Positions 3,014 through 8,782 of a stretch of 36,232 nt of DNA are shown here, one piece after another. Positions within the stretch are counted from its first letter, which is position 1, and every line of letters starts with the position of its first letter. A program made the translations under genes and the position numbers. Source of the DNA: an uncultured Thiogranum sp. (GTDB lineage Bacteria > Pseudomonadota > Gammaproteobacteria > DSM-19610); NCBI GenBank assembly GCA_913053655.1, contig CAJXFW010000008.1, positions 1-36,232 of the forward strand, read 5' to 3'. The notes below the pieces were generated by a model. That model was given only the letters and a program-made list of their open reading frames with translations, had not been told where the DNA came from and made no database searches.

Positions 3014-4501
3014 ATGCTGACTTCTGTGGGCAAGGTCTGGAAAGGGCTGATTGCACTGTCGGCCGGCGCTGTTTACCCGCTCGGTTTTGCGCCTTTCTCC
3101 TGGTATCTCCTGCCCGTTCTGGCGCTGGTCGTTCTGGCGGCGCTGCTGTTTACTTCCAGGTCCCGGGATGCCTTTCTGTATGGCTGGTTGTTCGGCGTTG
3201 GCCAGTTTGGCGTCGGCGTGTCCTGGGTTTATGTCAGTATCTATTTGTATGGGCACGCCGGGCTGCTGTTGTCTATTGCGGTGATGCTGCTGTTCGTTAT
3301 GTTCCTTGCGCTGTTTCCTGCGCTTATGGCCTGGGCGTTGGCCAGAGTCCGAATCGTATCCGGGAGCTGGTTTTACCTGGCGGCATTTCCCTCGGCGTGG
3401 GCGCTTTCCGAGTGGGTACGATCCTGGATATTCACCGGTTTCCCCTGGCTCAACCTTGGCTACAGCCAGGTTGAAAGTCCCTTGCTGGGTTTTGCCTCGA
3501 TTGTCGGTGTATACGGTGTAGGCTGGCTGGCTGCGCTGAGTGCCGGGTTATTGACCTGGTTGTTCAGCGGCGGGAAGGCTGCACGTTTTTTTGCCCCTGC
3601 GGGTTTGCTGCTGCTCTGGACCGGTGGATTTGCCCTGGGCAACTATCACTGGACCGAAGCGACCGGAAACAGGCTCGTTGCAACCCTGATACAGGGCAAT
3701 ATACCGCAGGAGCTGAAATGGAAACCGGCACAGCAACAGGCCACCCTGGAGCGCTATGCCCGACTTAGCCGGGAGCACCTCGACAGCGATATCATTGTAT
3801 GGCCGGAGACAGCGATCCCGGCATTCTACGATCAGGTTGAAGTCGAATTTATCGATCCCCTGCGGGAAGAATTTGAACAGCACGGTGTTTCGCTGGTAAC
3901 CGGGGTGCCGGTGCTGGATCGCAGTCACTGGAATTATTACAACAGCGTCATCAGCCTTGACCAGCCCGGCCGGTTTTACTACAAAGTTCACCTGGTGCCT
4001 TTTGGTGAATACCTGCCACTGCGTGACTGGCTGGCGGGAATACTGAATTTTTTGCCGGTCCCCCAGGCGGATTTCACTGCTGGAGAGCCGCAACAACCGT
4101 TGCTGGAAGCGGCCGGCTATCCGATTGGAACTTCAATCTGTTATGAAATTGCGTTTGGTGAACAACTCATCAACGCATTACCGGAAGCCGCCTTCCTGGT
4201 TAACGTCAGTAACGACGCCTGGTTCGGCGATTCCCTCGCCCCCCATCAACAACTGGAAATGGCGCGTATGCGGGCGCGCGAAACCGAACGCTATGTATTG
4301 CGTGCGACCAATACCGGAATTTCTGCAATCATCAATGCCGACGGTGGCTGGGTGGTACGTAGTCGGCAGTTTGAAACACAGGCCATAACCGGCAAGGTGC
4401 AGCCCAGAACGGGTGCGACACCCTATGTGCGTTGGGGGAACTGGCCGGTTGTGCTGCTGAGCCTGGGTTTGTTGTTGCTGGCGTGGCGTCTTGCTACCTG
4501 A
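3014..4501 (+). CDS. lnt: Apolipoprotein N-acyltransferase
   Basis: Multi-TM N-terminal region followed by a nitrilase-like domain (VWPETAIPAF, YYKVHLVPFGEYLP, TSICYEIAFG). Confidence 0.93.
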   Translation: MLTSVGKVWKGLIALSAGAVYPLGFAPFSWYLLPVLALVVLAALLFTSRSRDAFLYGWLFGVGQFGVGVSWVYVSIYLYGHAGLLLSIAVMLLFVMFLALFPALMAWALARVRIVSGSWFYLAAFPSAWALSEWVRSWIFTGFPWLNLGYSQVESPLLGFASIVGVYGVGWLAALSAGLLTWLFSGGKAARFFAPAGLLLLWTGGFALGNYHWTEATGNRLVATLIQGNIPQELKWKPAQQQATLERYARLSREHLDSDIIVWPETAIPAFYDQVEVEFIDPLREEFEQHGVSLVTGVPVLDRSHWNYYNSVISLDQPGRFYYKVHLVPFGEYLPLRDWLAGILNFLPVPQADFTAGEPQQPLLEAAGYPIGTSICYEIAFGEQLINALPEAAFLVNVSNDAWFGDSLAPHQQLEMARMRARETERYVLRATNTGISAIINADGGWVVRSRQFETQAITGKVQPRTGATPYVRWGNWPVVLLSLGLLLLAWRLAT

Positions 4502-4518
4502 TTAAGACTTCCGGCTAA

Positions 4519-5253
4519 TCAAGCCAAAGCTTTATACGCCCCATTTGAACACGGCGAAAAATTAGCCGGCCACGGTGACGACAGCTTACAGAGTACCCGG
4601 TACTGAATGGGGGCATCTGAATTAACGCGTTCAACAGAAACCTTCACATCCTGCTCACCTACCGATTTAAGCAATTGGGCAAATTCGCTGGAGTAGTATT
4701 GTGGCGCGTAACCGACAAGAGAGATTGGGTCACCAGTGCGTACCAGTAAGGCCATGGAATCGAATTTATTTTGAAGGTCACGCATCAAATATAAATTCTC
4801 ACCGGGTTTTAACTGGCGTGCACGATCCTGATTATCGGCGTGCATATGCCGAAGTCCCCGACTGAAGAAATACACTTCATAGTTTTTATTCGCATCCGGC
4901 TCCGGGCAAGGAAACAACTCCAGAGAGTCCGTAGCCCGTAATCCCCCCGTCCGGGACAACTCATCCATAACATCGTGGTTTTGTTCATTTAATCCAAGCC
5001 ATTCTAAATACTCCCCATACTCAGGGCGAGATTTCGGTAATACACGATTTGCGAAAAGCGGGAACAACTCATCCGATTGGTAAGCGACATGTAAATCCTG
5101 CATGCGGCCAAACGGTTGAAATTTCTTGCCGGCATCCTCTGCACCCCGGGTATAGACGAATTTGTACAGGCTATCGTCGCGCGTAAGGCGGCCAACCGGC
5201 GCCCAGCTTCGGCTATCGGGGTTCTGCCATGCGATATATAACGCTTTGGTCAT
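4519..5253 (-). CDS. HIRAN domain-containing protein
   Basis: C-terminal LKPGENLYLMRDLQNKFDSMALLVRTGDPISLVGYAPQYYSSEFAQLL matches the HIRAN pattern (N-x-x-D-x-x-A-x-x-V ... VGY.P); ATGA overlap with the upstream kinase gene. Confidence 0.72.
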   Translation of the reverse strand: MTKALYIAWQNPDSRSWAPVGRLTRDDSLYKFVYTRGAEDAGKKFQPFGRMQDLHVAYQSDELFPLFANRVLPKSRPEYGEYLEWLGLNEQNHDVMDELSRTGGLRATDSLELFPCPEPDANKNYEVYFFSRGLRHMHADNQDRARQLKPGENLYLMRDLQNKFDSMALLVRTGDPISLVGYAPQYYSSEFAQLLKSVGEQDVKVSVERVNSDAPIQYRVLCKLSSPWPANFSPCSNGAYKALA

Positions 5254-6173
5254 TTCAATATTTCCAGATTGCCCAGCCTTTCAGCGTTAAGTTCGAGCAT
5301 TTTCAGGGCAAATAATCCTGCCGGTTCAGTAATTTCAGATTCCGGGATGTTATCGAAAATCTCCTCGAAATCTTTACCAGAACAAAGGCTTAATTTGTCG
5401 CTCCAATAACGTGCTGCAGAAGGACAGTGCTTCGCCGCATTTTCGAAAGCGCCTATCGTAGTATAAGGCTTTTGGCTGGTAGTGCCAGGGTACAGGGCTG
5501 ATTCAGCTCTGCGTATATACGACTGTACAGAATAACCTTCGTCTCTGGTGCCGAGCCGCTCCAGCCGCCGTTCATCAGTCTCGTTCCGTCCCAGACTGGA
5601 AGCATGATCAAATGTTGGCGCCAAAAACAGGTGCGTATCCGGTGTAACAATCAATCCCCAATTCTCATGATGCCTGTCCTGATTGCTTACAAGTGCATCA
5701 AGGAGCAAATAGCCAGTAAAGACATGAAACGCTTTTTTCATCTCTCCAGTCTCCGGAGGCTGATGACCAAGAGGTAACGCGATCGGAAATCTGGTCAAAA
5801 CCACATGCACCCTTCCCAAAGTGTGCTGCCGGGTCCGATAACGTTTTGTCTTTTCATACCCTGGCTCAACACTTGCGAGCAGCTCATTTCCCAGAATTAA
5901 TCTCGACCCTTTCGGTACAAATGTTGGACTGACTACACCCTTCCAGTTGCCGGCATTTGCGGAGGCAAAGTCATACTCAGCATGCGGAAGCCCCAGTAAG
6001 CGGCAAATCTCACAACAAACCTTTTCCGCCCAGTTTTCACCAGTACCGGGGCGCCCCCTCTTGAACATGACTTGCTTATCATTTTCATCCCGGTACCAAA
6101 ACTTGGATTTGGTGCCCAGCTGCTCCAGCTGGCTCGATACGCCTTCCGGAACTTCGATGATGGGATAAGTCAT
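5250..6173 (-). CDS. HipA-like Ser/Thr kinase-fold protein
   Basis: VMFKRG (ATP-binding Lys region), DALVSNQDRHHENWG (HipA-type catalytic D..N..DRH..N loop), APTFDHASSLG. Likely start is ATG at 6173 (MTYPIIEVPEG); the longer ORF N-terminus overlaps the hsdR fragment out of frame. Confidence 0.75.
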   Translation of the reverse strand: MTYPIIEVPEGVSSQLEQLGTKSKFWYRDENDKQVMFKRGRPGTGENWAEKVCCEICRLLGLPHAEYDFASANAGNWKGVVSPTFVPKGSRLILGNELLASVEPGYEKTKRYRTRQHTLGRVHVVLTRFPIALPLGHQPPETGEMKKAFHVFTGYLLLDALVSNQDRHHENWGLIVTPDTHLFLAPTFDHASSLGRNETDERRLERLGTRDEGYSVQSYIRRAESALYPGTTSQKPYTTIGAFENAAKHCPSAARYWSDKLSLCSGKDFEEIFDNIPESEITEPAGLFALKMLELNAERLGNLEILK

Positions 6174-6189
6174 AGCCTGAAGTAATCGC

Positions 6190-6711
6190 TCAATGGACAA
6201 CCGTGTTGGACAGTACAGACTCAAGAATACCCAGCACTCTGGGGGCGCGCTTCGGAAATACGCCCACAATACCTTCATGGTGAAAATCCGAAAATGGCGG
6301 ATTAAACAGCGCCTCCGGGTCCATAATGCCATTCTGTGCCAGATGGTCAATGATCTGGTCAACGAAACGAATCTGGTCAGCATTCAGTCCGTTTTCAGCC
6401 AGAAAATCCGCAAAAGCCTCTTTGGCGGCCTTTCGGTCCAGGCCGATGATTTGTCTTACCAGCGTTCCCAGCGGTTGATCAGTACGGTAGATATCTCTGA
6501 AAGTGCCCTTCTTCCCCGGGCCGCCATCACTGAATAACAGCGATTCGAGTGCCCGGAGATCGGCGACGGTGATCGGCTGATTGGTCTTCAGATGTTGAAT
6601 CGAAGGGTGATCCTCGTGCTCACGTGTTAAATTGCACCCAAAATTAACCCGCGTGTAACCCTGATCTGCTGAAGAACCAGCGGGGGATAAAAGGAGTGAT
6701 AGACGTGGCAT
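6190..6711 (-). pseudogene. Type I restriction endonuclease R subunit (HsdR) C-terminal remnant
   Basis: From about 6624 down: HPSIQHLKTNQPITVADLRALESLLFSDG...LGTLVRQIIGLDRKAAKEAFADFL...LNADQIRFVDQIIDHLAQNGIMDPEALFNPPFSDFHHEGIVGVF, typical of the HsdR (EcoEI_R-type) C-terminal domain; no helicase or nuclease part upstream. Confidence 0.78.
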
Positions 6712-6761
6712 TATTGAGTGTAATCAGGCAGCACTCCCTGATCTCTGCGACGCACTCACGC

Positions 6762-6799: not shown

Positions 6800-8782
6800 A
6801 TGGACAACCGATGGCGCGATGCAGACGCCGCTGACTTTGCAGATGACCTGCTGCAACTGCGCGTCTACACTTCGCGGCTGCTGGGCCAGGACCCGGACCT
6901 GGTGCTCCACGGCGGCGGCAATACTTCGGTTAAAATCAACCAGCGTAACTTCTTCAGCGAAACCGAGTCCCTGCTGTATGTGAAAGGCAGCGGCTGGGAT
7001 CTGGCCACCATCGAGGCCGCGGGTTTCCCGGCGGTGAAAATGGACGTGCTGCTGAAAATGGCGCAGCTCGAACATTTAAATGACACGGATATGGTGCGCC
7101 TGCAGCGCACCGCCATGATAGACCCCGCTGCCCCCAATCCTTCGGTCGAGGCTATTCTTCATGCCCTGATTCCCTTTACTTTTGTGGACCATACGCACGC
7201 TGACGCCGTGGTCACCCTGAGCAATACCCCCGATGGTGAACAGATTCTGCGCGAGCTCTACGGTGAGCGCATGCTCATCTTTCCCTACGTCATGCCCGGC
7301 TTTACTCTCGCCAGGGATATTTACCAGCGCACCCGGGATATCGACTGGCAACAGTGCGACGGCATCATCCTGTTACATCACGGCGTTTTTACCTTTGCCG
7401 ATGACGCCAGACAGAGTTATGAACGCATGATCGAGATCGTGGCAAAAGCCGAGGCCTGTATTAAGGACAAGGGCGCCATGTTCGAGTCGGATGCGGCAAT
7501 TGAGGTTCCGGACAGTGAGCCGGATATCCTCGCTCTGGCCGCCATCCGTCGCAGCGTATCCCGTATTCGCGAACGGGCCAGTCTCTGCCGACTCGCGCAG
7601 GACCCGCTGTCGCTGTCCTTTTCCCGGCAAAAGAATCTGGCTCATATTGCCGGCCAGGGTCCTCTCACGCCCGACCACGTCATTCGCACCAAACGTATTC
7701 CGGCCCTGCTGAACGAAGATCCCGTGGCAGCCATCGAGGGCTTTGCCCGGGCATACGGATACTATTTCGAGAAAAATAATACAGCGGGTCTGACCTGCCT
7801 CAACCCCGCGCCCTGCTGGGCGGTGTGGCCGGGAACCGGTACGTTGAAATTCAGCAGTACGGCCAGAGAGCTTGGCATCATTGATGACATAAACCGGCAC
7901 ACCATGAAAAGCATCCTGCTGGCGGAACAACTGGGCGGCTGGTGTGCATTGCCGGAGAAGGATATTTTCGAGCTGGAATACTGGGAGCTGGAACAGGCGA
8001 AGCTGAAAAAGGACAAACAGGCCGCCGGTCTGCAAGGCAAAATTGCGCTGGTCACCGGTGCGGCCAGCGGCATCGGCAAGGCCTGTGTGGAGGCACTGCT
8101 GGCACAGGGTGCGGTGGTTGCAGCACTGGATATCGACCCGGCGATCGAAACCCTGTTTGCACAGGAGGCGGTGGTCGGTAGGGTATGTGACGTTACCGAT
8201 AGTGCGCAGATTCAATCTGCACTGCGTGCCCTGGTCACACACTTTGGCGGTCTGGACATACTGGTTAGCAATGCCGGCACATTCCCCCTCAGTGCCCGCA
8301 TCGAGGAACTTGATGAAGACAGCTGGGACAGCAGTATTTCCATCAACCTTACCAGCCACCAGCGCATGCTCAGCGCCTGTATTCCTTTCCTGAAACTGGG
8401 TGTCGATCCTGCGGTGGTTTTTATTGCCTCGAAAAACGTACCGGCACCCGGTCCCGGCGCATCGAGTTATTCGGTCGCCAAAGCCGGTATGACCCAGCTT
8501 GCGCGTGTCGCCGCGCTGGAGCTGGCCGGTGACGGGATCCGGGTCAACACACTGCACCCGGACGCCGTTTTCGATACCGCCATCTGGACTGATGAAGTGC
8601 TCGAAAAACGTGCCCGTCACTACGGTCTCAGTGTGCAGGAATACAAAACCAAAAACCTGCTGAAAACAGAAGTACGTTCAGGGGATGTCGCCGGGCTGGT
8701 GTGCGCGCTGGCCGGCTCGTTGTTTGCCAGAACCACCGGTGCCCAGATCCCGGTTGACGGGGGCAATGACAGGGTGATTTAG
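6800..8782 (+). CDS. Bifunctional rhamnulose-1-phosphate aldolase-like / short-chain dehydrogenase
   Basis: N-terminal class II aldolase/adducin-like region (VLHGGGNTSVK, FVDHTHADAV, LLHHGVFTF) fused to a C-terminal SDR (ALVTGAASGIGKAC, LVSNAGTFP, YSVAKAGMTQLAR). Confidence 0.9.
   Translation: MDNRWRDADAADFADDLLQLRVYTSRLLGQDPDLVLHGGGNTSVKINQRNFFSETESLLYVKGSGWDLATIEAAGFPAVKMDVLLKMAQLEHLNDTDMVRLQRTAMIDPAAPNPSVEAILHALIPFTFVDHTHADAVVTLSNTPDGEQILRELYGERMLIFPYVMPGFTLARDIYQRTRDIDWQQCDGIILLHHGVFTFADDARQSYERMIEIVAKAEACIKDKGAMFESDAAIEVPDSEPDILALAAIRRSVSRIRERASLCRLAQDPLSLSFSRQKNLAHIAGQGPLTPDHVIRTKRIPALLNEDPVAAIEGFARAYGYYFEKNNTAGLTCLNPAPCWAVWPGTGTLKFSSTARELGIIDDINRHTMKSILLAEQLGGWCALPEKDIFELEYWELEQAKLKKDKQAAGLQGKIALVTGAASGIGKACVEALLAQGAVVAALDIDPAIETLFAQEAVVGRVCDVTDSAQIQSALRALVTHFGGLDILVSNAGTFPLSARIEELDEDSWDSSISINLTSHQRMLSACIPFLKLGVDPAVVFIASKNVPAPGPGASSYSVAKAGMTQLARVAALELAGDGIRVNTLHPDAVFDTAIWTDEVLEKRARHYGLSVQEYKTKNLLKTEVRSGDVAGLVCALAGSLFARTTGAQIPVDGGNDRVI

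Follow-up and report, generated by a model that had tools for sequence, protein, structure and literature searches.

The window (the whole stretch of DNA analysed, 36,232 nucleotides from an uncultured Thiogranum sp.) carries a hipIN (PDC-M03) pair, in which the gene for a HipA-superfamily kinase, HipI, is followed by the gene for a HIRAN-containing partner, HipN. We propose that this is a horizontally acquired, toxin-antitoxin-like pair acting by abortive infection, and give this reading, taken as a full mechanism, a probability of about 0.55. The observations behind it are the folds and motifs of the two proteins, the obligate pairing of their genes, their recent insertion, a restriction-modification neighbourhood in related loci and the carriage of related pairs as prophage cargo.

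A kinase and HIRAN pair of a described family

Both proteins match PADLOC profiles over their full length, the kinase PDC-M03A (E 4.7e-115) and the partner PDC-M03B (E 2.3e-94), and their genes are adjacent. Judged by these matches, the pair is almost certainly of the hipIN/PDC-M03 type. The same gene order and architecture were described as hipIN by Gerdes, Baerentsen and Brodersen in 2021 (PMC8262856), together with the hypothesis that HIRAN recognises phage DNA ends, upon which the kinase is activated and the infection aborted; neutralisation of HipI by HipN is only putative in that work. In addition, a 2025 paper finds HIRAN-HipA gene pairs adjoining diDNase genes and mentions a predicted defence role. 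Our literature search returned no toxicity, DNA-binding or phage-protection result for the pair, and no paper naming the candidate system PDC-M03. A preliminary description of this DNA had noted that a known, characterised family covering the pair would count against its reading. Such a family exists, and a novel HipA + HIRAN system was rejected on the PADLOC and published evidence. Because the family, its architecture and the defence hypothesis are already published, the window copy adds little alone.

The two minus-strand genes sharing an ATGA overlap were both recovered as described earlier (Table 1). Against Pfam HipA_C, the kinase scores just below the curated cut-off (E 3e-6). Its AlphaFold2 model has a mean pLDDT of 94.4, and the nearest solved folds found by Foldseek are CtkA, HipA and HipT (HipT 7ab3-7ab5), which bears out the HipA-like fold assigned in the preliminary description; the two motifs named there, DALVSNQDRHHENWG and FDHASSLG, are both present. 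In hhalign comparisons with E. coli HipA, the catalytic-loop residues D166 and N171 fall on its ATDGHAKN motif, and D189 in FDHASSLG pairs with the aspartate of its YDIIS motif. K38 would be the ATP-binding lysine, a role that follows from the kinase fold. The catalytic motifs are intact in a kinase that is devoid of the HipA N-subdomain-1.

The partner is modelled with a mean pLDDT of 95.1. HIRAN is the sole family above its cut-off in this protein and the only HIRAN match in the whole genome. Foldseek matched its C-terminal half to the HLTF HIRAN domain with and without DNA (probability 1.00), as well as to 3k2y, and the N-x-x-D-x-x-A motif is retained. Together with the Pfam match, these results confirm the C-terminal HIRAN domain reported earlier, so that structure prediction backs both folds of the pair.

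In its N-terminal half, the partner is HipS-like, and this half is the proposed antitoxin part. Couple_hipA, the HipA N-terminal domain, matches 39 of 70 partner homologues (best E 1.3e-4), whereas the window partner by itself gives no match. Against E. coli HipA, the partner profile aligns in register with residues 11-65, but the similarity is weak, and a Foldseek search with the whole partner chain did not report this relation. Because the kinase itself is without N-subdomain-1, HipN seems to provide this subdomain in trans. The preliminary description had stressed the missing HipB antitoxin. Indeed, a Pfam search gave no match to HTH families in the kinase, the partner or the ORF directly upstream; the wording is nevertheless misleading, as the partner bears a HipS-like, proposed antitoxin domain. 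A toxin without antitoxin was thus rejected as worded, in view of the Couple_hipA matches of the homologues. The ORF at 6190-6711 was also considered as an antitoxin and rejected, being the C-terminal remnant of HsdR (EcoEI_R_C).

Table 1. Features of the insert and of the kinase/HIRAN pair in the window.
Feature	Position	Strand	Basis or description
Inserted segment, ~2.2 kb, three genes	4502-6737		Empty site in a congener and G+C; ends approximate
Partner gene, HipN / PDC-M03B	4519-5253	-	HipS-like + HIRAN, 244 aa, uninterrupted ORF
HIRAN domain of partner	4582-4878	-	Pfam PF08797, residues 126-224, E 2.6e-8, above cut-off
HipS-like (HipA N-subdomain-1) half of partner	4939-5253	-	Couple_hipA matches of homologues, weak alignment with HipA; boundary approximate
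ATGA stop/start overlap coupling the two genes	5250-5253	-	From ORF coordinates
Kinase gene, HipI / PDC-M03A	5250-6173	-	HipA-superfamily Ser/Thr kinase, 307 aa, uninterrupted ORF
Metal-binding motif FDHASSLG	5589-5612	-	Homologue alignment and hhalign with E. coli HipA
Catalytic loop DALVSNQDRHHENWG	5655-5699	-	Invariant in 64 aligned homologues
K38, expected ATP-binding lysine of the N-lobe	6060-6062	-	Invariant alignment column
Truncated hsdR (type I restriction subunit), only C-terminal domain left	6190-6711	-	EcoEI_R_C, E 3.4e-25

A small insert with an hsdR remnant

The G+C content of the insert is 49.7%, below the 56.8% and 58.1% of the genes on either side, and in one congener (G016) the site is empty, lnt being directly followed by the aldolase gene. 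The kinase has no close copy in the 16 congeners searched, one of which gives a weak partial match (E 1.8e-4, 30% identity), and HipN was not found in 19 other genomes of the order. The hsdR remnant likewise has no counterpart in any congener searched; a second, weak match to it lies elsewhere in its own genome (contig C166, 28% identity). By sequence comparison, then, the pair entered this genome recently by horizontal transfer, together with the hsdR stump. Transposon insertion was rejected, as direct repeats at the insert ends do not exceed chance. Near the ends (4497-4504 and 6721-6728) there is an 8-bp inverted match, CCTGATTA / TAATCAGG, which has a chance expectation of ~0.03 and is too weak to build on.

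The hsdR remnant lies directly upstream of the kinase gene and ends 16 bases before its start. No helicase or nuclease part is found before the next gene, which starts at 6800, so that instead of a complete type I system (hsdR, hsdM and hsdS) the HsdR C-terminal domain alone is left at this locus. Elsewhere in the same genome, on contig C36, a 1076-aa frame matching ResIII lies ~3 kb from a match to N6_Mtase, possibly as parts of a type I restriction system.

This setting raises the possibility that in this genome the module has lost its function and is what remains of a type I restriction island that has decayed, which we hold to be very unlikely. It would agree with an hsdR gene cut down to its C-terminal domain, its own promoter gone, and with promoter-like matches within the insert that are no more numerous than in shuffled sequence, a result for which a dedicated promoter for the pair was dropped as unsupported. 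On the other hand, both genes of the pair are uninterrupted, and the kinase and partner retain 54/55 and 45/45, respectively, of the positions conserved in at least 90% of their relatives. The pair is therefore not decayed, and with nearly all strongly conserved positions kept in both genes it is probably functional, whereas hsdR is not.

Conservation of the pair and its genomic settings

Peptide patterns of the window kinase were used to fetch 80 genomic loci, 77 of which have both genes complete; owing to this choice, the sample is not random. In all 77 complete loci a HIRAN partner lies directly downstream of the kinase, in agreement with the co-conservation anticipated in the preliminary description, and the 4-nt ATGA overlap recurs in 40 of them. 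The pairing also holds from the partner side: in 369 genomes of the class, 10 of 11 strong HipN matches (window included) have the kinase upstream. The exception (L130:1495-2235, minus strand) is a full-length HipN-like (HipS-HIRAN) protein, encoded downstream of a ubiE-like gene with the kinase absent, and because of it the HipN-like architecture may have another role outside the kinase pair. In IMG/VR viral contigs, 72 of 73 kinase loci have a HIRAN partner. On one viral contig (L220), which carries a diverged kinase relative, a profile search finds no HIRAN partner. In another locus (L062:956-1869), the kinase is frameshifted into two ORFs (956-1324 and 1324-1869) beside an intact HIRAN partner.

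Restriction-modification neighbours and phage cargo sites uphold the defence association suggested earlier for the pair. Pfam identifies N6_Mtase, Methylase_S and HsdM_N in 14, 10 and 9 cases among the upstream neighbours (n=113), and HSDR_N in 14 among the downstream ones (n=102); PADLOC also finds type I methylase and specificity genes upstream and HsdR downstream. A restriction-modification gene lies on the same strand within 1 kb in 20/77 loci and on either strand within 3 kb in 24/77, leaving none in 53/77 by this seed-based count. Per gene, the rate is 33/136 within 1 kb versus 0/188 at 6-10 kb, a comparison that favours nearby matches because the seeds were drawn from these same neighbours; the Pfam and PADLOC counts are independent of the seeds. 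Overall, about a quarter to a third of the pairs adjoin or sit within restriction-modification operons.

The place of the pair inside type I operons differs: it lies between the S and R genes, between the M and S genes, or after the R gene. In an intact counterpart of the window arrangement (L024), an HsdR ending in an EcoEI_R_C-type domain is followed by the kinase, the HIRAN protein, hsdS and hsdM. A quick tree built from 103 kinases requires 11 changes of the type I label, at least 4 of them forced by well-supported branches; these counts are rough, given long branches, weak support and type I labels assigned by hand. A more far-reaching but doubtful reading is that the pair serves type I and ISP restriction systems as their dedicated second line. 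HIRAN would read the ends made or left by the restriction enzyme, and the kinase would shut the cell down when restriction fails to clear the phage, so that enzyme and kinase would make up a single layered system that arose several times in evolution. In one further locus (L050), the pair is preceded by an HsdR N-terminal fragment (844-1635) and followed by another HsdR N-terminus (3285-4688), which looks like an insertion of the pair with a partial hsdR duplication.

A position inside hsdM/hsdS/hsdR operons that varies in this way could also point to a regulator instead of a toxin. HIRAN would then recruit the active kinase to DNA ends for phosphorylation of restriction or repair proteins (HsdR, RecBCD), for example to keep damaged DNA of the cell itself from being restricted. 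Two Methylobacter loci (L022 and L032) go in the same direction: the pair comes directly after recB-like and recD-like genes, ~185 bp away, so that a putative sensor of DNA ends adjoins genes for their processing. Most loci, however, have no restriction genes nearby, the pair is also carried as phage cargo, and the HipA relatives with known targets act on aminoacyl-tRNA synthetases (PMC8262856, Table 1). We therefore consider regulation of restriction or repair quite improbable.

As to phage carriage, with the Providencia pair as blastn query, 51 of 5,426 E. coli genomes gave matches (~66% identity), all of which fall short of 80% query coverage. Two of these records were inspected; in both, the pair sits in a P2-like prophage between replication and portal genes, with differing cargo beside it, in one case SIR2 and an ATPase. 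Only five records of a phage collection contain the kinase. It is present in four Vibrio elements assigned to Tectiliviricetes. In the two of these tectivirus-like elements that were inspected, the kinase is followed by HIRAN, with an integrase next. A few plasmids also carry the pair.

Such carriers, namely prophages, phage-like elements, a few plasmids and restriction operons, are also those expected of a plain toxin-antitoxin addiction module that stabilises restriction-modification islands and prophages, with HIRAN only positioning or autoregulating and no phage sensing. The small size of the mobile unit and its known empty site fit as well. Yet in the window the pair is accompanied by the hsdR stump only, so that nothing obvious is stabilised; moreover, the pair occupies cargo sites next to other defence-like genes, and HipN has no recognisable operator-binding HTH. 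Addiction is thus an unlikely account of the pair.

Proposed mechanism and comparison with known systems

In the abortive-infection reading that we prefer, we infer inhibition by HipN, DNA-end binding, a trigger, a target and the abortive outcome as follows. By analogy with HipBST and HipA, the HipS-like half of HipN would supply N-subdomain-1 in trans and restrain HipI. The HIRAN half is proposed to bind free DNA ends, because its fold is near that of DNA-bound HLTF and the N-x-x-D-x-x-A motif is kept. These would probably be single-stranded 3' ends; loss of HLTF's Phe142 has been argued to point to single-stranded DNA (PMC8262856). The ends could arise from phage replication, restriction or repair, and the recurrent placement in restriction operons makes ends produced by restriction a concrete candidate for the trigger. 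Their binding by HipN would release or activate HipI, which would phosphorylate an essential target, by analogy with HipA and HipT an aminoacyl-tRNA synthetase, and arrest growth before the phage can multiply. The related pairs that the survey located in E. coli P2-like prophages, being ready for use in laboratory strains, make the proposed mechanism easier to test.

Among described systems, hipIN (PMC8262856) shares with the window pair a two-gene operon with the kinase first, a kinase without N-subdomain-1, a partner with a HipS-like N-terminus and a HIRAN C-terminus, and an identical proposed function. No difference was found, PADLOC profile identity being used for the comparison in place of a clade XI placement of the window kinase. 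None was seen either with PDC-M03, a phage-defence candidate of PADLOC that is a candidate system only. The kinase fold and catalytic residues are also those of hipBA of E. coli K-12, with remote sequence similarity; unlike hipBA, the window pair is without an XRE-family HipB, no HTH match being found across the three genes of the insert, and the N-subdomain-1 of HipA sits on the partner. HipBST has a similar kinase fold and likewise divides the kinase and the HipS domain between two proteins, but it includes a separate HTH protein, HipB, whereas in the window the HipS-like part is fused to HIRAN.

HipAD (DS-6 of DefensePredictor, PMC13092281) also combines a HipA-like kinase with a non-HipB partner, and its predicted catalytic residue is required for phage defence. 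Its partner has DUF3037 and DUF1829, whereas that of the window has HIRAN and no such domains over cut-off. Finally, HipL (PMC8262856) unites the same kinase, HipS-like and HIRAN domains in one fused protein, which the window pair distributes over two genes.
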